In this document: piece by piece, positions 14,546 through 28,967 of the stretch | How positions within the stretch are numbered: the stretch's first letter is position 1 | Layout of the letters: every line of letters starts with the position of its first letter | The notes under the pieces: model-generated | The model's input: the letters and a program-made list of their open reading frames with translations, nothing else | Database searches by the model: none | What the model was told of the DNA's origin: nothing | Program-made: the position numbers and the translations under genes | NCBI GenBank assembly: GCA_035295165.1 | Contig: DATGJN010000104.1 | Span: 1-64,000, forward strand | Reading direction: 5' to 3' | Length of the DNA stretch: 64,000 bases | From: a bacterium | Lineage (GTDB): Bacteria; Sysuimicrobiota; Sysuimicrobiia; Sysuimicrobiales; Segetimicrobiaceae

Positions 14546-14645
14546 CGGGTCGTTCTGCTTCGGGGCCGTCGCCGGTGAGCGCGACTCGCGGGATTCGCGG
14601 TTGGCCGGAGGTGCGCTCGCGACAGGAGGGGAATACCAGTCGTCG

Positions 14646-16253
14646 ATGAGCGTCCTCGAGTCGCATGTCGACGTCCGTTTTGCGGAGTTCGACGAGAACC
14701 GCGCCCACCACGAAGGGCTCGCGCGGACCCTGGCCGAGCGGCTGGCGCGGGTGCGTGAGGGCGGCGGCGCCCGGGCCCGCGAACGTCAGCGCGCGCAGGG
14801 GAAGAAGACCGCGCGCGAGCGCATCGAGTCCCTGCTCGACGCGGGATCGCCGTTCCTCGAGATCGCGCCGCTTGCGGCGTGGGGGATGTACGGCGGTGAC
14901 GCCCCCGCCGCGGGGATCATCACGGGCATCGGCCGCGTGCACGGCGGTGAATGCATGATCGTGGCGAACGACGCCACGGTGAAGGGCGGCACCTACTATC
15001 CGCTCACGGTCAAGAAGCACCTCCGCGCCCAGGAGATCGCGCTCGAGAACCGGCTCCCGTGCATCTACCTCGTCGACTCCGGCGGCGCATTTCTGCCGCT
15101 GCAGGCCGAGGTGTTTCCGGACCGCGACCACTTCGGCCGGATCTTCTTCAATCAGGCTCGACTCTCCGCCAAAGGCATCCCGCAGATCGCCGCGGTGATG
15201 GGGTCCTGCACCGCCGGCGGCGCGTACGTGCCGGCGATGTCGGACGAGGCCGTGATCGTGCGGGGTACCGGCACGGTCTTCCTCGGCGGTCCGCCGCTCG
15301 TGCGGGCCGCGACCGGCGAGGAGGTGACCGCCGAGGAGTTGGGGGGCGCCGACGTGCACTGCCGCCGCAGCGGCGTGACGGACCATCTGGCGGTGGATGA
15401 CGCGCATGCGATCGCAATCGTGCGCGACATCGCCGGCACGCTGAACCGCGTCAAGGCGCCCGCGCTCGACCTCGCGGCGGCCGAGGACCCCCGGTACGAC
15501 CCGCGCGAGCTGTACGGCGTGCTGCCTCGCGACCTCCGTCGCCAGTTCGACGTCCGCGAGGTGATCGCCCGGGTCGTCGACGGGAGCCGGTTTCACGAGT
15601 TCAAGGCGCTGTATGGCACGACGCTCGTCACGGGATTCGCGCGGATCCACGGGATCCCCGTCGGCATCGTCGCGAACAACGGGGTGTTGTTCGTCGAGAG
15701 CGCCGAGAAGGGCGCGCACTTCATCGAGCTGTGCGGGCAGCGGCGGATTCCGATCGTGTTCCTCCAGAACATCACGGGGTTTATCGTCGGCCGCGAGTAC
15801 GAGGCCGCGGGAATCGCGCGGGCCGGCGCCAAGATGGTGCACGCGGTCGCGACGTGCGGCGTGCCCCGCCTGACCGTGATCATCGGCGGTTCGTACGGCG
15901 CCGGCAACTACGCGATGTGCGGACGGGCGTACGCGCCGCGGTTTCTCTGGATGTGGCCGAACGCCCGGATCTCGGTCATGGGCGGCGAGCAGGCGGCCGC
16001 GGTGCTGGCCACCATCAAGCGCGACCAGCGCGCGCGCGACGGACAGACGCTCAGCCCGGCCGAGGAGGCTTCGATCGCCGCCCCCGTGCTCGCGAAGTAC
16101 GAGGAGGAGGGCAATGCGTACTACAGCACGGCGCGCCTGTGGGACGACGGCGTGATCGACCCCGTCGACACGCGCACGGTGCTGGGGCTCGCGCTGTCCG
16201 CCACCCTCAACGCACCGGTCCGCGGGATGCGGCCCGGCGTGTTCCGCATGTAG
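14646..16253 (+). CDS. acyl-CoA carboxylase carboxyltransferase subunit (methylcrotonyl-CoA carboxylase beta type)
   Basis: Carboxyltransferase of a biotin-dependent acyl-CoA carboxylase, 535 residues, which moves CO2 from carboxybiotin to the acyl-CoA. Both crotonase-like halves are present: [20 protein letters not shown] in the N-half and [20 protein letters not shown] in the C-half, both characteristic of methylcrotonyl-CoA carboxylase rather than propionyl-CoA carboxylase. ATG 14646 is taken; GGAGGGG is about 15 bases upstream, so an upstream in-frame start is possible. Biotin carboxylase, carrier protein and HMG-CoA lyase genes follow, which supports a role in leucine/isovalerate degradation. 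Confidence 0.93.
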
Positions 16254-16258
16254 CGCCG

Positions 16259-17809
16259 ATGCGGACCGTGTTGGTCGCCAATCGCGGCGAGATCGCCGTC
16301 CGTGTCATCGGCGCGTGCCGTGAGCTGGGTCTTCGGACGGTCGCGGTATACGCGGATCCCGACCGGGACGCCCTCTACCCGCGGCTGGCCGACGACCGGG
16401 TGCCTCTTGGCGCCTCGGACCCGCTGGACACGTACCTGCACGTCGGTCGCCTGCTCGACGCGGCGCGGCGCTCGGGCGCGGACACGGTGCACCCTGGGTA
16501 CGGGTTTCTCGCGGAGTCGGCGGAGTTCGCCGCGGCGGTCCGCGAGGCGGGCCTGGTGTGGGTCGGTCCGCCCGCGGACGTGATCGCCCGCGTCGGGGAC
16601 AAGACGGAGGCGCGGCGGCTCGCAAGGCGAGCGGGGGTCCCGGTGGTGGCGGGATGTGACGCTGAGGAGACGTCGGACGCGGACCTGACGGCCGCGGCCG
16701 GCCGGATCGGATTTCCGTTGATGATCAAGGCCGCCGCGGGCGGCGGCGGCCGGGGCATGCGGCGCGTGAATGAGGCCAGCGACCTCCCGGGAGCGCTCGC
16801 GTCGGCCCGGCGCGAGGCGCGGGCGGCGTTTGGCCGGGACGCCTTGTTGTTGGAGCGCCACCTCGACGAGGTCCACCACGTGGAGGTGCAGGTTCTGGCG
16901 GACGCCACGGGGGTCGCCATGGCCCTCGGCGAGCGCGAATGCAGCGTGCAGCGCCGACACCAGAAGCTGATCGAGGAGTCGCCGTCGCCGTTCGTGACCG
17001 CGGAGCTGCGATCGCAGCTCGAACGCGCCGCCGTGGCGATCGCGGAAACGGCCGGGTACGTCAACGCGGGCACCGTGGAGTTCCTGGTAGACGCCGACCG
17101 CCGCTGGTATTTCCTGGAGGTGAATGCGCGGCTGCAGGTCGAGCACCCCGTGACCGAAATGGTGACCGGCGTGGATCTCGTCAAAGCGCAGCTGCACCTC
17201 GCCGCCGGTGACCGGCTGCCGGCGGACGGCAGCGGGCGCTCGCGGGCCCCGCGGGCGCGGGGTCACGCGATCGAGTGCCGGGTGTGCGCGGAGGACGCCG
17301 CGCACGGGTTTCGCCCGACGCCGGGACCCATTCTCGCCCTGGTGGAGCCGCATGGGCCCGGGGTGCGCGTGGACTCGGGGTTGCGCGCGGGATGGCGCGT
17401 GCCCGTCGAATACGATCCGATGCTCGCGAAGGTCATCGCCCACGCCGCGACGCGCGAGGACGCCGCAACGCGGATGGCGGACGCGCTCGGACGCTACGTC
17501 ATCCTGGGATGCCAGACGAACTTGGAATTCCTGCGCGCGGTGGTGCGGCACGACGCCTTCCGGGACGGGGAAACGACGACGCGGTTCCTGGAGCGCCATT
17601 TCGGGGCGTGGACCGGCGAGGCGGACGGGCTCGCCGCCGCGGCCGCCGCGGTGCTGACGCAGGTGCGCGACGCGGGTACGGCCGAGGCGACTGCAGCCCC
17701 AGGGGAGGGAGGATCGCCTGCCGGTAGCCCGGGCCGGGATTGGGACCCATGGTTGCGGGTCGGCCCCTGGCGCATGGGGATGTCCGGACCGCCGGGCGCG
17801 CATGAGTGA
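16259..17809 (+). CDS. biotin carboxylase subunit of acyl-CoA carboxylase
   Basis: ATP-grasp biotin carboxylase of 516 residues, charging biotin with bicarbonate. Visible motifs: N-terminal VLVANRGEIAVRV, HPGYGFLAE at 78-86, the glycine-rich ATP loop GGGGRGM at 161-167, and EVNARLQVEHPVTE near 293-306. In most methylcrotonyl-CoA carboxylases this domain is fused to the biotin carrier; here the protein ends before the carrier and the next ORF supplies it. The last 50 residues are a Gly/Ala/Pro-rich tail. Its stop overlaps the start of the carrier gene (ATG inside CATGAGTGA). Confidence 0.93.
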   Translation: MRTVLVANRGEIAVRVIGACRELGLRTVAVYADPDRDALYPRLADDRVPLGASDPLDTYLHVGRLLDAARRSGADTVHPGYGFLAESAEFAAAVREAGLVWVGPPADVIARVGDKTEARRLARRAGVPVVAGCDAEETSDADLTAAAGRIGFPLMIKAAAGGGGRGMRRVNEASDLPGALASARREARAAFGRDALLLERHLDEVHHVEVQVLADATGVAMALGERECSVQRRHQKLIEESPSPFVTAELRSQLERAAVAIAETAGYVNAGTVEFLVDADRRWYFLEVNARLQVEHPVTEMVTGVDLVKAQLHLAAGDRLPADGSGRSRAPRARGHAIECRVCAEDAAHGFRPTPGPILALVEPHGPGVRVDSGLRAGWRVPVEYDPMLAKVIAHAATREDAATRMADALGRYVILGCQTNLEFLRAVVRHDAFRDGETTTRFLERHFGAWTGEADGLAAAAAAVLTQVRDAGTAEATAAPGEGGSPAGSPGRDWDPWLRVGPWRMGMSGPPGAHE

Positions 17810-18314
17810 GGTCGTCCTTCGGGCCGGTGGCGTCGCGGCGCGGTACGAGGTATCGCGGGACGGGGACGCGTGGACCGTGCGGGTGGGGCCCCGTACGCAC
17901 CGCCTGCGACTCACCCTCCTCGAGTCCGGGGTGGCGCTCGTCGAGTCTGACGGACGGACGCACCTCCTGCATGCGGCGGCGGCGGGCGGACGCACCTTCG
18001 TGCACCTCGACGGCGTGACCCTGGACTTCGAGCCCGTGCGGCGGGGTGGCGAGCGCGGCGGCGGCGCGACAGACGATACCGGCGACCTCCGCGCGCCGAT
18101 GCCGGGTGTGGTCACCCAGGTGTTGGTGCGGGTCGGGGACACCGTCCGGACCGGGCAGCCGCTGCTCATCGTCGAAGCGATGAAGATGGAGCATGTCGTG
18201 CGCGCCGGCGGCCCCGGGGTGGTGCGCGCCGTGCGCGTCGCCGCCGGAGACCAGGTGGATGGGGGAGCCGTCGTCGCGGAGTTGGCTCCGGTCATGCCCG
18301 GCGACACGCCGTGA
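17802..18314 (+). CDS. biotin carboxyl carrier protein of acyl-CoA carboxylase
   Basis: A 170-residue protein whose C-terminal half is a biotinyl domain with the canonical EAMKMEH motif; the biotinylated lysine is K128. The N-terminal half (residues 1-80) is beta-rich and corresponds to the linker region found between biotin carboxylase and carrier domains in fused alpha subunits. The gene overlaps the biotin carboxylase by 8 bases and the HMG-CoA lyase by 4 (GTGA), so all are likely translated together. Confidence 0.92.
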   Translation: MSEVVLRAGGVAARYEVSRDGDAWTVRVGPRTHRLRLTLLESGVALVESDGRTHLLHAAAAGGRTFVHLDGVTLDFEPVRRGGERGGGATDDTGDLRAPMPGVVTQVLVRVGDTVRTGQPLLIVEAMKMEHVVRAGGPGVVRAVRVAAGDQVDGGAVVAELAPVMPGDTP

Positions 18315-19276
18315 CGGGTAAGGCCGGGGAAGCACGCGACCCGCTCCCAGACGGCCTGGCGGCGCCGTTCGCGGGGCTTCCCCGCCGGGTGCGGATCGTT
18401 GAGGTCGGCCCGCGCGACGGCCTCCAGAACGAGGCCGCCAGGCTCTCGATCGACGACAAGGTCGCGTTCGTCAGGCGCCTCGCGGCGGCGGGACTTCGGA
18501 CGATCGAGGTAGGCGCGTTCGTGCGCCCGGACCGCGTGCCGCAGATGGCCGACACCGACGCCGTGGTGCGTCGACTCGGATCGCTGGACGGCGTCGCGCT
18601 GTCCGCGCTGGTGCCCAACCGGCTCGGTATGGAGCGCGCCATTGCGTGCGGTCTGCGCGACGTGTCGGTGTTCACCGCGGCGTCAGAGGCGTTTGCGCGA
18701 CACAACATCAACATGACGATCGACGAGTCGCTCACACGGTTCGGCGAGGTCCTGACGCTTGCGGCCGAGCGCGCCATGCGTGTGCGCGCGTACGTGTCCA
18801 CGGCGTGGTGGTGCCCGTACGACGGACGCGTGAATCCGGATGCGGTGCGCCGGGTCGCGGGACGCCTGTTCGAGATGGGGTGTGGGGAGATCTCGTTGGG
18901 GGACACGATCGGCGCGGCGACGCCGGCGGACGTCGCGGCGTTGTTGGACGGTCTGGCGCGCGATCTGCCCCGAGGCGCCCTGGCGGTCCACTTCCACGAC
19001 ACGCGGGGGACGGCGCTTGCGAACGTCCTTGCCGCGCTGTTGCAGGGCGTCACCACGATCGACGCCGCGGCCGGCGGTCTCGGCGGTTGCCCGTACGCGC
19101 CCGGCGCGTCGGGCAACTTGGCGACCGAGGATCTCGTCTACATGCTGCACGGGATGGGAATTGACACCGGGGTGGACCTCGCCCGGTTGGTCGAGGCGTC
19201 GCGACCGCTTGCGCTGCTGGTCGGCCGCGCGCTGCCGTCCCGCTATCTCCAGGCCGGGCCGCCGCCGGCGGGCTGA
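18311..19276 (+). CDS. hydroxymethylglutaryl-CoA lyase
   Basis: Cleaves HMG-CoA to acetyl-CoA and acetoacetate in leucine degradation, 321 residues. The family fingerprint is complete: EVGPRDGLQN near the N-terminus with catalytic Arg-Asp, the metal-binding HFHDT, and the active-site loop GGLGGCPYAPGASGN with C260. GTG 18311 overlaps the carrier gene stop. A 26-residue N-terminal extension precedes the barrel. With the upstream carboxylase it covers methylcrotonyl-CoA onward, except for methylglutaconyl-CoA hydratase, which is not in this window. Confidence 0.95.
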   Translation: MTGKAGEARDPLPDGLAAPFAGLPRRVRIVEVGPRDGLQNEAARLSIDDKVAFVRRLAAAGLRTIEVGAFVRPDRVPQMADTDAVVRRLGSLDGVALSALVPNRLGMERAIACGLRDVSVFTAASEAFARHNINMTIDESLTRFGEVLTLAAERAMRVRAYVSTAWWCPYDGRVNPDAVRRVAGRLFEMGCGEISLGDTIGAATPADVAALLDGLARDLPRGALAVHFHDTRGTALANVLAALLQGVTTIDAAAGGLGGCPYAPGASGNLATEDLVYMLHGMGIDTGVDLARLVEASRPLALLVGRALPSRYLQAGPPPAG

Positions 19277-19356: not shown

Positions 19357-20187
19357 TCAGGGATGGGTGCGAAGCAACATGACGACGCTCGGGAGCACCA
19401 GCAACACCGTGACGACAATGACCGCCACCACCGACGGGCCGCGCGCGGCCGTGGCGCGCCGGTCGAGGGCATCGAGGACCATGAGGCGCACGCCGTTCAG
19501 GGCGTGGTACACGACCGCTGCGACTAGAAGCGCTTCCATCGGGACGAGGTACGGCAACGCATAGCCGGTGACGGTTCGCTCGTACAGACCGGGAGCGAAG
19601 GGCACGAGGGCGATGTCCAGGATGTGAAGGAGCAAGAAGCCCAGGATCCCGATCCCGGCGACTCGGCTCAGGGCGAACGCCCATTGCCCCGGGTAGTTCC
19701 ACCATCCGAGCGGGCGGCGGCGGAGCAGGAACGTGACCAACACGCTCGCGGTCGCGAGGATTGCGAGGTAGGTGAGCGAGGCCAGCACCACCAGGCTCGC
19801 GATCAGGACGGTGGGGATCCAATCCGCCCCGGCCAGGGGGCCACCGCGTTCGCCCCGCGCTCCCGCGCCGATGGCGATCGTGCCGAGCGCGATAAACGCG
19901 AGGCCTCCCACCGCGAAGACGCCGTCGACCACCGCCCGCGCGCGGCGCAGGTGGTCGCGCAGCACCCCGTGCACCCCAACCAGACCGTGCGTCAAGGCGA
20001 GGACGAGCAGCATCCAGTCGAACACTCGCCAAGATGCGCTGCCCCACCGCCGGTTCACGAACGCCGCGCCTGTCGCGGACGGCGCATGCTGGTAGTGCAT
20101 GACAAACAGGTGTCCCAGCACAAAGGCGACCATGAGCGCGCCGCTCACACGCAGGTAGTACCACGTGAGGGCGTCGCGACCGCGCAC
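19357..20187 (-). CDS. fused succinate dehydrogenase membrane anchor (SdhD-SdhC order)
   Basis: Cytochrome b-type anchor of 276 residues with about seven membrane helices, twice the size of a normal SdhC or SdhD. Residues 1-105 resemble SdhD (WYYLRVSGALMV, GHLFVMHYQHAPS, THGLVGVHGVLRDHL). Residues 155-276 resemble SdhC (GQWAFALSRVAGIGILGFLL, LLHILDIALVPF, VVYHALNGVRLM). Candidate heme-ligand histidines are H26, H31, H67 and H189, H228. It ends the fum-sdh operon and gives the quinone site and membrane attachment for SdhAB. The fusion in this order is unusual. Confidence 0.82.
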   Translation of the reverse strand: MRGRDALTWYYLRVSGALMVAFVLGHLFVMHYQHAPSATGAAFVNRRWGSASWRVFDWMLLVLALTHGLVGVHGVLRDHLRRARAVVDGVFAVGGLAFIALGTIAIGAGARGERGGPLAGADWIPTVLIASLVVLASLTYLAILATASVLVTFLLRRRPLGWWNYPGQWAFALSRVAGIGILGFLLLHILDIALVPFAPGLYERTVTGYALPYLVPMEALLVAAVVYHALNGVRLMVLDALDRRATAARGPSVVAVIVVTVLLVLPSVVMLLRTHP

Positions 20188-20194
20188 GGGGCGA

Positions 20195-20899
20195 CTAGCG
20201 ATCGGCGGCCCCTTTCCGCAGCAACTGGATCGAGAGCAGCGGATTGATCGCGACCGGGCACGCCGTCACGCAGTTGCCTACGTCGTGACACGCGTGGACC
20301 CCGCCGTCTCCCAAGAGGAGGGGCAGGCGGTTCTTCTCGATGGGTTCACGGACGTCGGCGCTCAACACGTACGCGCGGTTCAAGGCCGCGGGTCCGAGGT
20401 AGGCGGGGTTCAGGGCCACGACGGGACAAGCGGAATAGCAGGCGCCGCAGGAGATACATCCGAGTTGCCGATCCACGACGTCGCGGACCCGCGAGTCCGG
20501 ACGGACCACGGCCGGCGTGCCGTCGCGCCCCATCATGGAAGCGTCCGTCGCCGCAAAAAAGGGGTCGACGGCCTTGTACTTGGCGAAGAACGGCGCCATG
20601 TCAACGACGAGATCCTTGATCACCGGCAGCGACCGCAGGGGTTCGACGTGGACGGGGCTCCTCAGGCGGTCCAGCCGCCGGCGGCACGCGAGATCTTCGC
20701 GGCCGTTGATCAGGACCGCGCACGATCCGCACATCCCCGCACGACACGAGTAGCGGAACCCCAGGCTGCCGTCTGCGTGCTCCAGGATCCAAAAGAGGCC
20801 GTCGAGCACGCTCATCTGTGGCTGGATCTCGACCGTGTACGACCGCCACGCGGGCCGCGCGTCGGCATCGGGGTTGAAGCGCCTGACGCGGAAGATCAC
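20195..20899 (-). CDS. sdhB: succinate dehydrogenase/fumarate reductase iron-sulfur subunit
   Basis: Iron-sulfur subunit of 234 residues passing electrons between the flavin and the quinone. The plant-type [2Fe-2S] motif CRAGMCGSC with a fourth cysteine about 15 residues on, the [4Fe-4S] motif CISCGACYSACP, and the [3Fe-4S] motif CHDVGNCVTACP are all intact. The gene overlaps the end of sdhA by 4 bases and lies 7 bases before the anchor gene. Confidence 0.95.
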   Translation of the reverse strand: MIFRVRRFNPDADARPAWRSYTVEIQPQMSVLDGLFWILEHADGSLGFRYSCRAGMCGSCAVLINGREDLACRRRLDRLRSPVHVEPLRSLPVIKDLVVDMAPFFAKYKAVDPFFAATDASMMGRDGTPAVVRPDSRVRDVVDRQLGCISCGACYSACPVVALNPAYLGPAALNRAYVLSADVREPIEKNRLPLLLGDGGVHACHDVGNCVTACPVAINPLLSIQLLRKGAADR

Positions 20900-22623
20900 G
20901 GCCGCGCGGCGTGCGGGGTCGGGAGATCGTCAGGCGTCAGGCGGTTCAGGCGCACCGGCTCGGTCCAGGGCGTGCGGTCCCGCGCTTGGCAGATGTTGAC
21001 GAGCCAGCGGGTATCGTCGCGGTCGGGGAAGTCGCGCCGCGCGTGCGACCCGCGACTCTCCTGTCGATGGCGCGCCGCGGTAGCCGTCAGGCGAGCCGCC
21101 GTCAGCAAGCTTCGCACATCGAGGGCCTGCTGCCAGGTCAGGTTCCACCGGGCGCCGGGCGGAGCCGCCACGTGCGCGGCGCGATCCTCCAGCTCGGCGA
21201 TCTCCGCCAGCGCGCGCTCGAGCCCCGGCGCGTCGCGGACGAGCCCGACATGGTCCCACATGACCCGCTGGAGGCGGTCGCGGATCTGAAACGGGCTCTC
21301 GCCGCGCTCCCGCGCCAACGGCGCGATCGCCTCGCGCTGGGCCTGCGCGGCCTCGGTCTCGTCCGGATCCGCGAAGGACCACTCGGCGCACATCCGCGCG
21401 GCGGTGCGGCCCGCCCGCGATCCAAACACACACGAGTCCGCCACTCCGTTGCCGCCGAGGCGGTTCGCCCCGTGCACCCCGCCGGCATCCTCGCCCGCCA
21501 CCAGGAGTCCCGGGAGGGACGGCACGTGACAGTCCACGTCGATCCGCGCACCGCCCATGTGGAAGTGCGCCGTTGGGATCACCTCCACCGGGCCGGCGCA
21601 GAGGTCGTAGCCGACCTCCGCGCAGCGCTTCACCATGCCGGGGAAGTTGCGCGCGACGAACTCGGCACCCAGCGGGGACGCATCCAGCAGCACTCCGCCC
21701 GCGGGGGTGCCGCGGCCAGCCATGATCTCCAGGTAGCTCGCCCGCGCGACGAGATCCCGGGTGGCGCGCTCCATTCGCAGCGCGTCGTACCGCACCATGA
21801 AACGCTCGCCTTGCGCGTTGAGCAGCCACGCCCCGGCGCCTCGGAGACCCTCCTCCAACACCATGCCGGACAGCCGCGACGCGCCGGCGAGCAACCCGGT
21901 GGGGTGGAATTGCATCATCTCCATATCAATGAGGTCGCACCCGGCCCGGTACGCCATGGCGTAGCCGTCCCCGGTCTTCTCCAGCGACGGCGCGGAGTAT
22001 GTGTACATCCGCGGTCCCCCGCCGGTGGCGAGCAGCACCACGCGGGCACGGGCCAGGACAAACGCACCCGTCTGCTGTTGCAGCAGCAGTGCGCCGGTGA
22101 TCCGATGCCCCGCGCGGTCGTGGATCAGCTCCACCGCACGCGTTTCATCGAGCACGCGGATCCGCCGCGCGAACAGCTGGTCGTGGAGCCGGCTCACGAT
22201 TTCGATCCCGGTCAGGTCCCCGCGATGGACGGTCCGGTCGAACGACTGGCCGGCGAACGCCTTCTGATGGATCTGCCCGTCCTCGCGGCGATCGAAAAAA
22301 CACCCGACCTTCGTCTCCAGCTTCCGGATGACGTCGGGGGCCTCGGAGACAAGAGCCCAGGCGAGATCCTGGTTGTTGAGGAATTGGCCTCCCGCAAGGG
22401 TGTCGCGAAAGTGTCGCTCGACCGAATCGCGCGGGTCCAAGGCGGCGTTGAACCCGCCCTGCACGAGCCGCGTGCATCCGCTCTTCCCGACCAAGCCCTT
22501 GGCCACGACCGTGATGTCGAGTCGCGGTTCCAGGTCGTACGCGTGCAGGGCGGCCAGCAGGCCCGCCCCGCCGCTGCCGAGGATCAGGACGTCGCACCGG
22601 AGCTCTTCCCACTCACGGCTCAT
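20896..22623 (-). CDS. sdhA: succinate dehydrogenase/fumarate reductase flavoprotein subunit
   Basis: FAD-binding catalytic subunit, 575 residues. The dinucleotide fold LILGSGGAGLLAA is at 13-25, and active-site elements FHPTG, TRDLVARA, HFHMGG and NRLGGNGVADSCVFG are intact. The usual covalent flavin histidine (SHTxxAQGG in E. coli) is replaced: the aligned stretch is SGCTRLVQGG, with C50 at the histidine position. FAD is therefore probably not attached through histidine, which in E. coli FrdA mutants blocks succinate oxidation but not fumarate reduction. ATG 22623 is chosen for the normal N-terminus. Fumarase genes lie immediately upstream. Confidence 0.93.
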   Translation of the reverse strand: MSREWEELRCDVLILGSGGAGLLAALHAYDLEPRLDITVVAKGLVGKSGCTRLVQGGFNAALDPRDSVERHFRDTLAGGQFLNNQDLAWALVSEAPDVIRKLETKVGCFFDRREDGQIHQKAFAGQSFDRTVHRGDLTGIEIVSRLHDQLFARRIRVLDETRAVELIHDRAGHRITGALLLQQQTGAFVLARARVVLLATGGGPRMYTYSAPSLEKTGDGYAMAYRAGCDLIDMEMMQFHPTGLLAGASRLSGMVLEEGLRGAGAWLLNAQGERFMVRYDALRMERATRDLVARASYLEIMAGRGTPAGGVLLDASPLGAEFVARNFPGMVKRCAEVGYDLCAGPVEVIPTAHFHMGGARIDVDCHVPSLPGLLVAGEDAGGVHGANRLGGNGVADSCVFGSRAGRTAARMCAEWSFADPDETEAAQAQREAIAPLARERGESPFQIRDRLQRVMWDHVGLVRDAPGLERALAEIAELEDRAAHVAAPPGARWNLTWQQALDVRSLLTAARLTATAARHRQESRGSHARRDFPDRDDTRWLVNICQARDRTPWTEPVRLNRLTPDDLPTPHAARP

Positions 22624-23218
22624 CGCGGAGCCCCAATCGTCGGTAAACATCCGCCAGGCGCGCGTGGGCCCGTTGCGCAACGTCGCGGTACATGCTCTCG
22701 CCGTGCGCGTCCATCGCGACGATCAGCGGACCGAACGCCCGGACGCGAAACTGCCAGAGGCACTCCGGCATCAGATCTTCCCAGTAGACGTGTTCGATCG
22801 CCTCGACCTGTTCGGTTTCCACGGACGCGGCGCCGCCGACAATCGCCAAATAGACGCCGCCATGGCGCGTCAGGGCGGCGCTGCTCTCGTCGGAGAGGCC
22901 GCCTTTCCCGATGATCGCGCGGACGCCGCAGACGCGCAGCACATCCTCGGTGAACCGGTCCATCCGCATGCTGGTCGTCGTCCCCACGGTCATCGCTTCG
23001 TACCCGCTCGCCGCCGTCGCGCTGCGACGGACGTTCGGCGCGACGTGTAGGAGCGCGCCTCCGCGCAGGTCGACGGGCGACGGTTGCGCCTGATCAAACA
23101 TGCGGATCAACGTGGCGTCGCGAATCCCCCAGACGATGCCGTCAAGCAGGACGGTGTCGCCGACGCGCAACGCCCGCACCGCGTCCTCGGAGAGCGGGGT
23201 CTCGAGCCGGTGCTCCAT
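22613..23218 (-). CDS. class I fumarate hydratase (or related hydro-lyase) beta subunit
   Basis: Beta subunit (FumA C-terminal domain) of a two-subunit, iron-sulfur class I fumarase, 201 residues. It shows LRVGDTVLLDGIVWGIRDA, GPT-like AASGYEAMTVGTTTSMRMDR and IGKGGLSDE, all typical of the swivelling domain. It interconverts fumarate and malate together with the alpha subunit. Tartrate dehydratase is a close relative, but the position between fumarase alpha and sdhA favours fumarase. It overlaps sdhA by 11 bases and follows the alpha subunit by 2 bases. Confidence 0.9.
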   Translation of the reverse strand: MEHRLETPLSEDAVRALRVGDTVLLDGIVWGIRDATLIRMFDQAQPSPVDLRGGALLHVAPNVRRSATAASGYEAMTVGTTTSMRMDRFTEDVLRVCGVRAIIGKGGLSDESSAALTRHGGVYLAIVGGAASVETEQVEAIEHVYWEDLMPECLWQFRVRAFGPLIVAMDAHGESMYRDVAQRAHARLADVYRRLGLRDEP

Positions 23219-23220
23219 CG

Positions 23221-24120
23221 TTAGTACGTAATCTCCACGCGCCCGTCGCGGTACACGCGGGCGCGTCGGCGTTCGCCGCGCCAGCACTGCATGTTGATCG
23301 CCACCGGGTTCAGCGTGATGTGTGTCCACGCCGTCTCGATGTGCAGATCGAGCGCCGTGGTATCGCCTCCCAGGCCCATCGGACCGATGCCCGTGCTGTT
23401 GATCGCGTCGAGCAGTTCGCACTCGAGCGCGGCCACCTCCGGATCGGGGTGGCGCTGGCCGATCGGCCGCAGCGTCGCTTTCTTCGCGAGCGTCACGCAG
23501 AGATCCGAGGACCCGCCGATGCCGACCCCGATGATCGTCGGCGGGCACGGTCGACCGCCGGCGCCCACGCTGGTTTCGAGCACGAACTTCTTGATGCCGG
23601 CGATTCCGTCGGCGGGCAGCAGCATCTTCAAGAAGGACATGCTCTCCGACCCCGATCCCTTCGGCATCATCAGAATGTCGATATGGTCGATCGCGTCGGA
23701 GAACTCCACGTGCACGACCGGCACACTCTCTCCGGTGCTCGTCTGTCGGTTCTCCCGACGGATCGGAGAGACGATGCTCGATCGCAGCGGCGTCTCCGTG
23801 GTCGCCCGCTCCACCCCGCGGCGCAGCGCATCGATCATGCGAACGCCGTCGATCGACACGCCCCGCCCAATTGTGATCCAAAAGATCGGGATCCCCGTGT
23901 CCTGGCACACCAGCGTCTGCTTGCGGTCCGACACCTCGATCGCCTTGAGCATCGTGCCAAGGATCCCGCGCGCCACCGGGTTTGACTCGCGCGTCTGGGC
24001 GTCTCGCAGCCCCTGACGGATGTCGGGGGGGATGTCGATTTGCGCGTCCACGTAGAGTCGGCGCCCAATCTCCTCGAAGAGGGCATCGCGTTCGGGCGTG
24101 TCGAGCGACAGATCAATCAT
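23221..24120 (-). CDS. class I fumarate hydratase (or related hydro-lyase) alpha subunit
   Basis: Alpha subunit of the two-subunit class I fumarase, 299 residues, carrying the [4Fe-4S] cluster. Candidate cluster cysteines are in VCQDTGIPIF, GGRPCPPTIIGVGIGG and SDLCVTLAKK, the three positions conserved in the family. AGGAG is seven bases before ATG 24120; an ATG 15 bases further upstream overlaps the ribosome site itself and is rejected. It heads the fum-sdh cluster, 159 bases after livF on the same strand, and may be cotranscribed with the liv genes or have its own promoter. Confidence 0.9.
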   Translation of the reverse strand: MIDLSLDTPERDALFEEIGRRLYVDAQIDIPPDIRQGLRDAQTRESNPVARGILGTMLKAIEVSDRKQTLVCQDTGIPIFWITIGRGVSIDGVRMIDALRRGVERATTETPLRSSIVSPIRRENRQTSTGESVPVVHVEFSDAIDHIDILMMPKGSGSESMSFLKMLLPADGIAGIKKFVLETSVGAGGRPCPPTIIGVGIGGSSDLCVTLAKKATLRPIGQRHPDPEVAALECELLDAINSTGIGPMGLGGDTTALDLHIETAWTHITLNPVAINMQCWRGERRRARVYRDGRVEITY

Positions 24121-24279
24121 GAGTGGACTCCTCATATCCTCTCGGTGCCGTTCTCATGTCCGCTTGGACCCCGCGCCGGCCGCGACGCGCTCGCCGGTCC
24201 GTCGGTGCCGCGCGTGCTCGGTGAGGGTGCGCGCATGCCTGCGGTCCGTTCCCGATACACCGCCTGCGCGCGCCCGCGT

Positions 24280-24960
24280 CTACAGTCCCATGTACGCGGC
24301 GCGCACGCCGGGGTCATCGTACACCTCCGCCGCCGATCCGGACAGCACGATCCGTCCCCCCTCCATGACGTACGCGCGGTCCGCCACGGCGAGGGCGTTC
24401 TCGACGTCCTGTTCGACCAGCAGCACGCTCGTCCCCTCGGCGCGGATCTGGACGAGGACGTCCAGCATCGCCGCCGTGACAAGCGGCGACAGCCCAAACG
24501 ACAGCTCGTCGATGCAGAGGACCTTCGGGCGGGACATCAACGCCCGACCGATCGCGCACATCTGCTGCTCGCCCCCGGAGAGGGTGCCGGCCAACTGGCG
24601 GCGCCGTTCGTGCAGCCGCGGCAGGATCTCGTAGACATGTGCGAGCGTCGCCGGGATGCCGGCGTCGCGCCGGAGGTACCCGCCCATGAGCAGATTCTCC
24701 TCCACCGTCATCGAGCCGAACAACCGCCGGCCCTGGGGCACGAGCGTCAGTCCGCGCGCCGTGACATCCGGCGGTTCGAGCCCCGCGACCGGCCTACCGG
24801 CGAGCGAGACCGCGCCCCCCCACGGCGGCACGAGGCCCGTCAGCGCGAGCATCGTCGTCGTCTTCCCGGCCCCATTGTTGCCGAGCAGGGTCACAATCTC
24901 GCCCTGGGCGACGTCCAACGTCACGTTCCACAGGACCTGGATCGCCCCGTAGCCGGCCAT
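24280..24960 (-). CDS. livF: branched-chain amino acid ABC importer ATPase LivF
   Basis: ABC ATPase of 226 residues. Walker A GNNGAGKTT is at 27-35, the signature LSGGEQQ and the Walker B region VLCIDELSFGLSP are typical of LivF. The annotated ATG starts inside the first strand: relatives begin about ten residues earlier, and here the in-frame codons just upstream encode IALLEIRDL, the expected N-terminus, with GGAGG before an ATC codon at 24987. The true start may therefore be non-canonical. It is the last liv gene. Confidence 0.9.
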   Translation of the reverse strand: MAGYGAIQVLWNVTLDVAQGEIVTLLGNNGAGKTTTMLALTGLVPPWGGAVSLAGRPVAGLEPPDVTARGLTLVPQGRRLFGSMTVEENLLMGGYLRRDAGIPATLAHVYEILPRLHERRRQLAGTLSGGEQQMCAIGRALMSRPKVLCIDELSFGLSPLVTAAMLDVLVQIRAEGTSVLLVEQDVENALAVADRAYVMEGGRIVLSGSAAEVYDDPGVRAAYMGL

Positions 24961-24973
24961 GAGGTCCCGGATT

Positions 24974-25777
24974 TCAAGGAGCGCGATCGCCGTCCCTCCC
25001 GGTGTCGGCCCGCGGAGCTCGATGGGCCCACGGGCCGCTCCGCTGTCGGCGACGGGAGTAGTGCTCGCCGAAGTAGGCGGCGACGACCTGCGGGTCGCGG
25101 ACGACGTCCGCCGGGCTGCCCTCGGCGAGCAGCTGTCCGTGGTGCATGACGACCACGCGGTGCGAGAGCCCCATGATGACCTTCATCAGGTGCTCGATGA
25201 CGATGAGGGAGACCCCGCTGCGGTGCACGGCGCGGACGAGCTCGAGCGCTGCTTCCATCTCGCCGGGGTTGAGGCCCGCCATCGCCTCGTCCAAGAGCAG
25301 CACGGACGGCCGGATGGCGAGCGCCCGCGCGAGCTGGACGCGCTTCTGCTCGGCCAGGCCGATCTCGCCGGTCGTCCGGTCGGCGAGCCCGCTGAGGCCG
25401 ACAAACTCCAGCACCTCGTCAGCGCGTTCCGCGGCCGCGCGGCGATCGGTTCGCCCACCGAACAGCGCCCCCACGAGCACGTTCTCGCGCACGGTCATCT
25501 CCTTGAAGACCCGGACGATCTGGAACGTCCGGGCGATCCCCATGTGCACGATGGCGAACGGCGGCCGGCCCGTCACTTCCCGCGCGCCCAAAAAGATGTG
25601 GCCGGCCGTGGGCCGGTACGCGCCGGCGATCAGGTTCATCAGCGTGGTCTTCCCGGCGCCGTTCGGGCCGATCAGCCCGAGGATCTCTTGGGCCTTGAGC
25701 TCCAGCGAGACCGCGCGGACCGCCTGCAGCCCGCCGAAGGACTTGGATACGCCCTCGAGCCGGAGCGCCGTACTCAT
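24974..25777 (-). CDS. livG: branched-chain amino acid ABC importer ATPase LivG
   Basis: ABC ATPase of 267 residues, partner of LivF. Walker A GPNGAGKTTLMN lies near residue 37, the LivG hallmark IARTFQIVRVFKEMTVRENV is clear, and Walker B is VLLLDEAMAGLNPGE. The signature motif reads IGLAEQKRVQLARAL instead of LSxGxQ, a modest change. The last 30 residues after FGEHY are arginine-rich and not family-like. ATGA overlap links it to livM upstream. Confidence 0.92.
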   Translation of the reverse strand: MSTALRLEGVSKSFGGLQAVRAVSLELKAQEILGLIGPNGAGKTTLMNLIAGAYRPTAGHIFLGAREVTGRPPFAIVHMGIARTFQIVRVFKEMTVRENVLVGALFGGRTDRRAAAERADEVLEFVGLSGLADRTTGEIGLAEQKRVQLARALAIRPSVLLLDEAMAGLNPGEMEAALELVRAVHRSGVSLIVIEHLMKVIMGLSHRVVVMHHGQLLAEGSPADVVRDPQVVAAYFGEHYSRRRQRSGPWAHRAPRADTGRDGDRAP

Positions 25778-26799
25778 ACGCGAAGCCGCCGGGTGCCCTC
25801 GAACAGCGAACGCCACGACAGGCCCTGTTGCCCCGTGAGATACGGCCAGACGCCGCGCGGCAGGAACAGGACGATCACGACGATGACGACTCCCAGGAAC
25901 AGCGTGTGGGCGGTCAGCAGATTCGCCCAGAGGTACTGGTCGACGATCTCGACGAGAAACGCGCCGACGACGGGGCCCCAGAGCGTCCCCGCGCCGCCGA
26001 CCAGCGTGAGCACCACCATGGTCAGGCTGTAGAGCGGGTCGAAGACCGACGGGGGATTCACGAACGTGATCCAGACCGCGTACACGCTGCCCACGAGGGC
26101 GGCCACGATCGCGGAGAGGCCCCAGCACGCGGTCTTGTAGTAGGTCGCGTTGACGCCGCACGCCGCCGCCGCGTGTTCGTCCTGCCTGATCATGCGGCAG
26201 GCGTATCCCCACGAGCCCCGGAGGATCACGTGGGTGATGAGCAGCGCCAGCCCCAAGACGGCGGCCATCAAGTAGTAGACGTCGGTGTCCCCGATCGGCA
26301 CGCGCAGAATGATGCCGTTCGGGCCCCCGACCCACGGCACCATGATGACGATCTGGCCGAGGGCCTGCGCGGTCCCGAGGGTGGCGATCGCGAAGTAGTG
26401 GCCGTTCAACCGTAGCACGATCGGGCCGATGACCGCCGCGAAGGCGAGCGCGGCGAGCGCGGACGCGCCGAGCGCCGGCAACAGCGTCCAGTGCAGGTGA
26501 GCCACGAGCGCGGCCGTGACGTACGCCCCGATCCCGAAGAACGCCACGTTCCCGACGGAGGGGTAGCCGCAGAGCCCGCCGATCAGGTTCCAGGAGAGCG
26601 CGAGCGCCATGTACATGAGAATCGTCGTCGCTTCGCGCAGGGGATACCCGGAGGCAACGAGCGGGGTCGCCAGCACCGCAATGCCGAACCCGACGGGGAG
26701 GGCGACGCGCAGCACGGCCGCCCGTCCGGCCCGGCGCGCCGCGCCGGCTGCCGGACGCAGTGCGTCCGCGGGCGCCGGCGATCTCGCGGGCAAGCTCAC
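25774..26799 (-). CDS. livM: branched-chain amino acid ABC importer permease LivM
   Basis: Membrane permease of 341 residues with about ten hydrophobic segments. Family motifs include ALSWNLIGGLCGYPSVGN and GHYFAIATLGTAQALGQI, and the ATPase-docking loop is around SWGYACRMIRQDEHAAAACG. The first 28 residues are Ala/Arg/Pro-rich and precede the first helix. GTG 26799 overlaps the livH stop (GTGA), and its own stop overlaps the livG start. Confidence 0.93.
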   Translation of the reverse strand: MSLPARSPAPADALRPAAGAARRAGRAAVLRVALPVGFGIAVLATPLVASGYPLREATTILMYMALALSWNLIGGLCGYPSVGNVAFFGIGAYVTAALVAHLHWTLLPALGASALAALAFAAVIGPIVLRLNGHYFAIATLGTAQALGQIVIMVPWVGGPNGIILRVPIGDTDVYYLMAAVLGLALLITHVILRGSWGYACRMIRQDEHAAAACGVNATYYKTACWGLSAIVAALVGSVYAVWITFVNPPSVFDPLYSLTMVVLTLVGGAGTLWGPVVGAFLVEIVDQYLWANLLTAHTLFLGVVIVVIVLFLPRGVWPYLTGQQGLSWRSLFEGTRRLRV

Positions 26800-27665
26800 G
26801 CGGTCACCCGGCCCCCCAGGCCGCGCGGGCGCAGCGCCAGGATGAACACGAGCATGATGAAGGCGGCGGCATCGACCGCGCCGGAGCCGATGACCACGGA
26901 CGCGACCGATTCGACCATGCCGAGGACCAACCCACCGAGCAGGGGGCCGTAGACGTTGCCGAGGCCCCCGAGGCACGTCACGACGAAGGCCCGCAGCGTC
27001 AGGCCTCCGCCGATCTGGGGCGAGAAGGGGAAATTCACGCTGTACAGCGCGCCGGCCACGCCAGCCAGGCCGCAGCCGAGACCCATCGTGAGCGCGAACA
27101 CTATCGGAAGCCGGACGCCCATCAGGCTGGCCGCGTCCAGATCCATTCCCGTGGCGTTGATCGCGCGGCCCATCCGGGTGTGGTGCATGAACCGCGCGAG
27201 CGCGACGGTCATGACGAGAGCGGCCGCGAGCACGGCGACCCGCGTGTACGGGATCGTGAGCGCACCGATCGCGAGGCTGGTCGCGCTGTACGACGTGATG
27301 ACCGCCCGCGGGTCCGCCGTCCACAGGAGAATCCCGATGTTCACAAGCACGTAGTCGATGCCGAACGTGAGGAGCAGGGTCAGGAAGAACTGGCCGCGCA
27401 TCACCCGGTTCAGCAGGTACCGCTGCATCAGGAACCCGAGCACGGCGAGGACGGCGAAGTCGATCGGGATGCTGAGCAGCGGGTCGAGGTGCAGCGGGGA
27501 CGTCAACAGCATCCACGTGAGATAGGCGCCGAGCATGATGAACGACCCGTGCGCCAGATTGACGATGTTGAGGATGCCCCACTCGAGCGAGAACGCTAGC
27601 GCGCTGAGGGCGTACACTCCTCCGAGCAAGAGGCCGTTGACGATGATCTGCGGCCAGATCTCCAC
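26796..27665 (-). CDS. livH: branched-chain amino acid ABC importer permease LivH
   Basis: Membrane permease of 289 residues. The N-terminus (NGLLLGGVYALSALAFSLEW and NIVNLAHGSFIMLGAYLTW) matches LivH closely, and the EAA-like loop is at RMGRAINATGMDLDAASLMG. Start codon is GTG. It forms the translocation path with LivM. A long hairpin separates it from livK upstream. Confidence 0.94.
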   Translation of the reverse strand: MEIWPQIIVNGLLLGGVYALSALAFSLEWGILNIVNLAHGSFIMLGAYLTWMLLTSPLHLDPLLSIPIDFAVLAVLGFLMQRYLLNRVMRGQFFLTLLLTFGIDYVLVNIGILLWTADPRAVITSYSATSLAIGALTIPYTRVAVLAAALVMTVALARFMHHTRMGRAINATGMDLDAASLMGVRLPIVFALTMGLGCGLAGVAGALYSVNFPFSPQIGGGLTLRAFVVTCLGGLGNVYGPLLGGLVLGMVESVASVVIGSGAVDAAAFIMLVFILALRPRGLGGRVTA

Positions 27666-27737: not shown

Positions 27738-28967
27738 TCAGCGCTGGGCCCAGCTGGGCATCGGGAACTTGAGGTTGGCGAGGTACTTCTGCGGCCAGAT
27801 CGGCACGGGCGCCCCGTTCTGAATCTGGACCGCCGCCCCCAGCTGATTGTCCTCGTGCCAGTTGTTGTCGAAGTGCACAAATCCGGCGATGGTCGCGAAG
27901 GTGGTGTTGAGGAACGCGGCGCCGACCTTCGCGGGGTCGGTGCTGTTCGACTTCGCGATCGCCTCCACCAGGAGCTCGACGCCCTCCGCGGCGTCGCCCA
28001 CGTGGTAGTCCGGGATGTACCCGCGCTTCGCCTTGAACCCCGCGACGAACTGCTGGGTGTTCCCGAAGTACGGGTCTGTGTAGTTGACCTGCGGCAGCCA
28101 CGGCGACGGGCCAATCACGTACTCGGCGTCCTTGCCGAGCGCCTTGACGTAGTCGGGCGTGGGCGGCGCGACCGTGAAGGCCAGCGCCTTGAAGTTGAGG
28201 CCGTTCTGCTTCGCCTGCCTGGTGATCAGGATCGCATCTTCGATGTGCCCCGAACTCATCAGCACGTCAGCGTTCAGCGGCTTGATCTGGGCCACGAGCG
28301 AGGAGACGTCCGTCGTGGCGGCCGGGTACTGGAAGTCGCCGAGCACCCGGATGCCCTTGTTCTTCATGTACGCGACCGCCCCCTCGGCGACGCCGACGCT
28401 GAACGAGTCGTCGGCGTGCATCATGACCGCGGTCTTAATACCGCTTTGCTTCGCCAGGAGCGCGTCCACGATCGGGTACATGTACTGGTAGTCGTACATG
28501 ATCGGTCCGATCACGTTCTTGTTGCCGGACGTCCAGATGACCTTCGCGACGCCTTCGTCGGCCATCATGACCGCGCCGAGCTTGCTGCTGATCGCCGCGG
28601 CCGCGATCGTGTTGTCGGACGAATACGGCCCGAGGATCAGCGAGATGTGGTCTTGGGTCACGAGCTTCTCGATCAACGCGGCGGACTGGGCGGGTTTGCT
28701 CTCGTCGTCGTAGTACTTGATCGGGGCCAGCTTGTACGCCACACCGTTGATCTTCACCCCGCCGTGTGCGTTGATCCAGTCGACGGCGAAGTCGTAGCCG
28801 TCGGTGGTGAGCTTGCCGGCCGCCGCCAAGCTGCCCGTGTTCGAGATGGCCGCGCCCAGCCTGATCGTGTGGCTCACGTCCTGCGGGGAGGCCGTTCCCT
28901 GGAACCCGATGGTCACCAGCAAGACCAGCGCTACCGCGGCGGCGATGCTCCCGAGCGTTAGCCGCAT
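27738..28967 (-). CDS. livK: branched-chain amino acid ABC importer substrate-binding protein
   Basis: Periplasmic-binding-protein type I receptor of 409 residues, first gene of the liv operon. A signal peptide covers about residues 1-28, with no lipobox cysteine. The two-lobed Leu/Ile/Val-binding fold is shown by IRLGAAISNTGSLAAAGK, YYDDESKPAQSAALIEKLVT and LGPYSSDNTIAAA. The C-terminal half has many aromatic residues. Ligands in this family also include urea, amides and aromatic compounds, but the neighbouring leucine-degradation genes fit branched-chain amino acids. Confidence 0.92.
   Translation of the reverse strand: MRLTLGSIAAAVALVLLVTIGFQGTASPQDVSHTIRLGAAISNTGSLAAAGKLTTDGYDFAVDWINAHGGVKINGVAYKLAPIKYYDDESKPAQSAALIEKLVTQDHISLILGPYSSDNTIAAAAISSKLGAVMMADEGVAKVIWTSGNKNVIGPIMYDYQYMYPIVDALLAKQSGIKTAVMMHADDSFSVGVAEGAVAYMKNKGIRVLGDFQYPAATTDVSSLVAQIKPLNADVLMSSGHIEDAILITRQAKQNGLNFKALAFTVAPPTPDYVKALGKDAEYVIGPSPWLPQVNYTDPYFGNTQQFVAGFKAKRGYIPDYHVGDAAEGVELLVEAIAKSNSTDPAKVGAAFLNTTFATIAGFVHFDNNWHEDNQLGAAVQIQNGAPVPIWPQKYLANLKFPMPSWAQR

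Follow-up and report, generated by a model that had tools for sequence, protein, structure and literature searches.

The window, by which we mean the whole 64,000-nucleotide stretch that was analysed, carries on its minus strand an operon for a relative of respiratory complex II joined to a hydratase of the class I fumarase family, in the order fumA-fumB-sdhA-sdhB-sdhCD, head to tail, with overlapping gene ends at FumB/SdhA and SdhA/SdhB. The flavoprotein, an SdhA homologue of 575 amino acids (20896..22623, minus strand), matches the FAD_binding_2 (253 bits) and Succ_DH_flav_C (102 bits) domains and begins with an ATG that overlaps the FumB stop codon. The iron-sulfur subunit SdhB (20195..20899, minus strand), whose start overlaps the SdhA stop (GTGA), has the cysteine motifs for a [2Fe-2S], a [4Fe-4S] and a [3Fe-4S] cluster. 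The membrane anchor is a single fused protein of 276 amino acids (19357..20187, minus strand; TIGR02968, TIGR02970, PF01127) in which an SdhD-like half (residues 8-88) precedes an SdhC-like half (residues 167-266), and the histidines in its motifs THGLVGVHG and VYHALNGVRLM are candidate heme ligands. With these cluster motifs and candidate heme histidines in place, the complex looks able, as far as sequence allows a judgement, to pass electrons between flavin and quinone. The SdhC/SdhD fusion recurs in close relatives of the window complex; in another subclade, the plasmid-borne members encode SdhC and SdhD separately.

The hydratase is encoded as an alpha subunit (23221..24135, minus strand; PF05681, 302.6 bits) and a beta subunit (22613..23218, minus strand; PF05683, 113.5 bits) of the class I fumarase/tartrate-dehydratase type. 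Upstream, co-directional and about 145 bp before fumA, lies a set of ABC transporter genes, all on the minus strand: a LivF-type ATPase (24280..24960), a LivG-type ATPase (24974..25777, start approximate), a LivM-type permease (25774..26772, start approximate) and a LivH-type permease (26796..27665), the last three assigned from translation, followed by a LivK-type periplasmic binding protein (27738..28967; Peripla_BP_6, 169.5 bits) that is a candidate importer of the substrate of the complex. Convergent with the operon, on the plus strand at 14601-19276, is a 3-methylcrotonyl-CoA-carboxylase-like set (carboxyltransferase, biotin carboxylase and biotin carrier protein) and then an HMG-CoA-lyase-like gene, which in translation resemble leucine degradation.

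Covalent attachment of FAD to a histidine is a textbook feature of respiratory complex II. The preliminary description of this locus held that a cysteine replaces the FAD-linking histidine of SdhA/FrdA, and codon, alignment and clade conservation all agree that it does. The residue is C50, encoded by TGC at 22476-22474 on the minus strand, within a flavin loop in which residues 44-57 read L V G K S G C T R L V Q G G. The motif SGCTRLVQGG is there as described, but it occupies 22453..22482 (minus strand; placed by alignments, a codon check and the helix start in the AlphaFold model), and the interval first given for it, 22464-22493, covers residues 45-54. Nor does a neighbouring histidine offer itself as the flavin link, since there is none in the loop from K42 to G57, and the replacement stands.

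The register of this assignment deserves some care. In alignments made with HMMER to solved SdhA and FrdA chains, the FAD-linking histidine falls either opposite or beside C50, because the preceding loop is one residue longer: seven residues separate the conserved lysine from the cysteine in 53 of 53 Cys-type sequences, and six separate it from the histidine in 48 of 50 His-type sequences. Cysteine and histidine alike directly precede a conserved Thr/Ser, six residues before the first glycine of QGG/EGG, and in AlphaFold models C50 opens a short helix (H50-53) just as H43 of a canonical relative (L066) opens the same helix (H43-46). We therefore treat C50 as the equivalent of the histidine. 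The model of the window SdhA has a pLDDT of 92.7. In a comparison that takes in secondary structure and fold matches of AlphaFold models, M. smegmatis Sdh1 is its closest match in the PDB, and the complex II flavoproteins of mitochondria and of E. coli, FrdA included, follow closely. In the alignment, cysteine occupies the position in 57 of 57 clade members and histidine in all 60 of the more distant His-type relatives; judged on this record, C50 is neither a sequencing error nor a product of chance.

The Cys type shares much with E. coli SdhABCD, FrdABCD and M. smegmatis Sdh1: the fold (TM 0.81-0.92) and FAD domain, an SdhB with three iron-sulfur clusters, a heme-type anchor, and the residues His240, Glu258, Arg289, His353 and Arg388, all of which are retained. 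It differs from canonical SdhA/FrdA, to which it is about 30-42% identical, in the extra loop residue before the cysteine and in a second substitution. The remaining active-site motifs had been taken to be intact, and this does not hold. In the stretch L256-E257-E258 (21850..21858, minus strand), alignment to 1nek places E257 at the substrate-binding threonine (EcSdhA T254 / FrdA T244), where glutamate is found in 57 of 57 Cys-type sequences and Thr/Ser in 60 of 60 of the His type; E258 falls at the position of the proton-shuttle glutamate (FrdA E245). These E. coli residue numbers and roles agree with the titles of PDB entries, among them FrdA E245Q and E49Q. Further residues are specific to the clade (R52, V54, K216, R286, R333, D379 and G393), the flavin-loop residue is glutamine as in EcSdhA (Q50) as opposed to the glutamate of FrdA (E49), and active-site residues are nearly constant across the Cys-type subclades.

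Relatives were gathered from a scan of genome contigs, which gave 80, and from further phylum-wide and plasmid searches. Cys-type members share about 50-82% identity with the window SdhA (57 aligned), and in a maximum-likelihood tree 51 of them lie on one side of a single branch with an SH-aLRT value of 100, the tree being the product of a quick search, with long branches between groups and no NadB or methanogen TfrA rows. By the taxon labels as given, several of which belong to metagenome-assembled genomes, the clade extends over Bacillota, Actinomycetota, Chloroflexota, Planctomycetota, Pseudomonadota, Acidobacteriota and haloarchaea. A more distant relative (L031, genome G003) has the loop KLGRCGSSAITSGG, with neither histidine nor cysteine at the usual position.

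RefSeq calls the plasmid-borne members just "FAD-binding protein", and the window SdhA falls short of every curated NCBIfam cut-off for SdhA, FrdA, TfrA and NadB, including those of TIGR01812 (454 bits against 567) and TIGR01816 (360 bits against 727). Its top NCBIfam model is TfrA NF004900, at 552.7 bits against a cut-off of 718; identity with TfrAB was rejected on that score and on the partner subunit, as TfrB carries a long C-terminal extension that the window SdhB does not (SdhB has 234 residues and matches only positions 7-214 of a 488-position model), and the operon also has a membrane anchor. Identity with NadB was likewise rejected. NadB and the soluble fumarate reductases belong to the same superfamily and also lack the FAD-linking histidine, with FAD bound non-covalently, but they are soluble and have neither SdhB nor a membrane anchor, whereas the window complex has both; the NadB model scored 348.5 bits against a cut-off of 452.75, and no NadB above its cut-off was found in the 13 genomes searched. 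The intact SdhB and heme-type anchor genes therefore place the protein among respiratory enzymes rather than NadB-like flavoproteins. Its domains, SDH-like fold, anchor and SdhB with three cluster motifs make it a complex II flavoprotein, and it departs from the covalent-FAD succinate dehydrogenases in lacking the 8alpha-FAD histidine, the substrate-binding threonine and an NCBIfam SdhA/FrdA score above cut-off. The Cys-type complex is a separate, widespread and unnamed branch of complex II relatives.

The hydratase is a regular neighbour of this branch. Neighbourhoods were compared at a fixed distance of 5 kb around 46 Cys-type and 16 His-type loci; FumA lies within that distance in 40 of the 46 and in none of the 16 (p = 3e-10, this and the later p-value being indicative only, as the loci are related to each other). 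Although the linked two-subunit hydratase is of the same family as class I fumarase and L(+)-tartrate dehydratase, the SDH-linked FumA sequences form a clade of their own (SH-aLRT 100), apart from the other class I fumarases of the same genomes and excluding 22 such sequences of the phylum, among them a second copy in the window genome itself (contig C35). Flavoprotein and hydratase thus appear to have been inherited together. In one genome (G028) a hydratase pair of the SDH-linked clade sits beside its own ABC transporter genes (contig C37, locus L195), away from the contig with the Cys-type complex (C87).

Elsewhere in the clade other enzymes stand in this position. In haloarchaeal and Rubrobacter loci (L053, L116, L120 and L043), which have no FumAB, the Cys-type flavoprotein is adjoined by a gene of the argininosuccinate-lyase family, whose matches below cut-off include the coenzyme M enzyme XcbC and which may be an alternative hydratase. 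In one subclade of eight loci (L055-L058, L060, L061, L064 and L087), from proteobacteria and one Acidobacteria MAG, the place of FumAB is taken by an acyl-CoA ligase, usually accompanied by an enoyl-CoA hydratase, which suggests that the same two steps take place there in a CoA-dependent form. Because of this subclade, substrates may differ within the clade.

Genes for sulfonate metabolism are the other recurrent neighbours. SuyA/SuyB lies within 5 kb of 17 of the 46 Cys-type loci and of none of the 16 His-type loci (p = 3e-3, to be read with the same reserve), and TauE within 5 kb of 15 of 46 against 0 of 16, so that linkage to SuyAB and to sulfite export runs across the clade. The linked SuyA/SuyB have the two-gene form of the UxaA family, an arrangement particular to sulfolactate sulfo-lyase (PMC6336799), and they are accompanied by sulfolactate-dehydrogenase-like genes (NF040650 as top model, below its cut-off) and by SlcC-like, YeiH, SoxC, hydroxyacid-dehydrogenase and sulfolactaldehyde-reductase genes; SuyAB and ComC assignments here are family resemblances below curated cut-offs, and lyase could not be told from dehydratase by the cysteine patterns of the SuyB-like proteins. 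In 10 of 19 genomes whose Cys-type locus has no SuyAB, a SuyB-like gene with 63% identity or more lies elsewhere. One of the SuyB-like genes away from the complex (66% identity) belongs to the genome (G045) of the sister of the window lineage, L034, whose flavoprotein is 74% identical to that of the window and whose locus has a sulfolactate-dehydrogenase-like gene and an NMT1-type ABC transporter.

The same families, SlcC/ComC/SuyAB/TauE, make up the sulfolactate mineralisation cluster described for Chromohalobacter and Paracoccus (PMC12421959), and they flank many of the Cys-type complexes; the cluster resembles the Cys-type clusters of P. versutus and P. ferrooxidans, with which we would identify it. 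The clusters described so far start from sulfolactate, DHPS or sulfosugars, and in the available portions of the open-access literature we found no description of a complex II relative as part of a sulfolactate cluster. Degradation of 3-sulfopropionate is called unreported in a 2024 paper, which makes an exception for one thesis, on Roseovarius nubinhibens, cited without genes for the route from 3-sulfopropionate through sulfoacrylate to sulfolactate (PMC11489063).

The rest of the window genome was examined through targeted searches. It has a separate His-type SdhA (G000, contig C20), a FumC above its cut-off (C76) and the second class I fumarase already mentioned, and the Cys-type complex is therefore probably accessory, and dispensable for the TCA cycle. 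SdhE was not found in this genome; as the genome also encodes a canonical His-type SdhA, this result carries little weight. No SuyB-like gene of more than 40% identity and no Xsc above its cut-off was found there, and the combination of SuyAB with a sulfolactate dehydrogenase was absent. A UxaA-family pair on contig C116 was rejected as SuyAB (36% identity, sugar-acid neighbours, and a second gene of 343 amino acids against about 115), as was an Ldh_2 gene on C85 as sulfolactate dehydrogenase (top model NF040650, 272 bits against a cut-off of 500, with neighbours that are not sulfonate-like); the closest ComC-like gene, at 42%, lies outside a sulfonate context.

A separate clade, a co-inherited hydratase and frequent desulfonation genes together point to an enzyme that oxidises a succinate analogue, with the product then hydrated. 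We infer the direction, the substrate and the flavin state of the complex, alongside the observed residue, clade, operon, linkage and genome counterparts, and we lean towards reading it as a membrane-bound, quinone-linked dehydrogenase for a succinate-like acid other than succinate, with 3-sulfopropionate as the candidate substrate for the clade. The flavoprotein would remove two hydrogens, converting X-CH2-CH2-COO- to X-CH=CH-COO-; the electrons would leave the flavin by way of the three iron-sulfur clusters in SdhB and reach quinone via the heme-type anchor; and the class I fumarase-type hydratase encoded alongside would add water to give the 2-hydroxy acid X-CH2-CH(OH)-COO-. The best candidate for X across the clade is SO3-, in which case 3-sulfopropionate would become 3-sulfoacrylate and then 3-sulfolactate, which SuyAB would split into pyruvate and sulfite. 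Bilophila is able to respire 3-sulfopropionate. A counter-point to the sulfonate is that glutamate in place of the carboxylate-binding threonine seems ill-suited to a doubly anionic substrate: next to Glu257 a second anionic group should be disfavoured if nothing neutralises the charge, which, as a guess, the clade-specific R286 or R52 might do.

In the window lineage the substrate may be another succinate analogue, as the desulfonation step was not found there. That this lineage uses methylsuccinate, say, or another 3-substituted propionate, with the sulfonate confined to other subclades, is a variant compatible with the general reading, and we give it an appreciable though less than even chance. 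It accords with the absence of SuyAB from the window genome and its nearest relatives, with a change of transporter from one close relative to another (SBP_bac_5/Opp-type in L032 and NMT1-type in L132 and L137, against LivK-type in the window), and with the acyl-CoA ligase of one subclade; the sulfonate-like gene complement of the sister L034 and the near-invariance of the active site between subclades tell against it.

The preliminary description had suggested that this complex may run as a fumarate reductase, or else have a different flavin linkage. A dedicated quinol:fumarate reductase would have a low-potential, non-covalent FAD, would receive fumarate made from malate by the neighbouring fumarase, and would serve anaerobic or electron-sink metabolism. 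Most loci do have a fumarase beside the complex. The flavin potential drops by about 90-150 mV when the covalent bond to FAD is lost, and relatives whose FAD is bound non-covalently reduce fumarate without oxidising succinate (PMC9557727). The surroundings and the active site, however, speak otherwise: sulfite exporters and sulfolactate genes lie nearby, the flavin-loop residue is that of EcSdhA rather than that of FrdA, and the glutamate that replaces the active-site threonine in all members is unlike anything in the aligned His-type enzymes. The clade is also present in Bacillus, Paracoccus, Methylobacterium, Rhodococcus and haloarchaea, which are known as aerobes. Nor is it supported that the organism's own SDH has been converted in this way, given the separate His-type SdhA, FumC and second class I fumarase in the genome, and given the separate clade of the complex, its own hydratase clade and the frequent desulfonation genes. 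Fumarate reduction is the weaker reading beside a succinate-analogue dehydrogenase, and we consider it improbable. Equally unlikely is an ordinary succinate dehydrogenase that has lost its histidine link and forms, with a fumarase of the ordinary kind, a module taking succinate to malate when C4-dicarboxylates are imported. In its favour one could cite the fumarase partner, the LivK-type importer upstream, and the conservation of the overall fold, the Fe-S motifs, the heme-type anchor and the majority of the active-site residues. Against it stand the enzymes already present in the genome (His-type SdhA, FumC, another FumA), the covalent FAD held necessary for succinate oxidation (PMC9557727), the change from threonine to glutamate at the substrate site and the linkage of many relatives to desulfonation genes.

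Under the favoured reading of a succinate-analogue dehydrogenase, the FAD would be either non-covalent or linked to C50 as 8alpha-S-cysteinyl FAD. A flavin linkage other than histidine is possible because the replacing residue is invariably cysteine; where many residues should serve a non-covalent FAD, such invariance is compatible with a cysteinyl link. The most specific form of the proposal, a complex II branch that is a 3-sulfopropionate:quinone oxidoreductase with cysteinyl FAD and that, with its co-evolved hydratase, would supply the missing genes of 3-sulfopropionate and homotaurine degradation in bacteria and haloarchaea, is doubtful.

Covalent FAD raises the flavin potential and permits succinate oxidation (PMC9557727), and a clade that spans several phyla with an invariant cysteine and intact electron-transfer partners offers a direct test of the rule of covalent histidyl FAD. 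The Cys-type operons also supply candidate genes for the degradation of 3-sulfopropionate, and annotation of such proteins as succinate dehydrogenase or fumarate reductase should be avoided.
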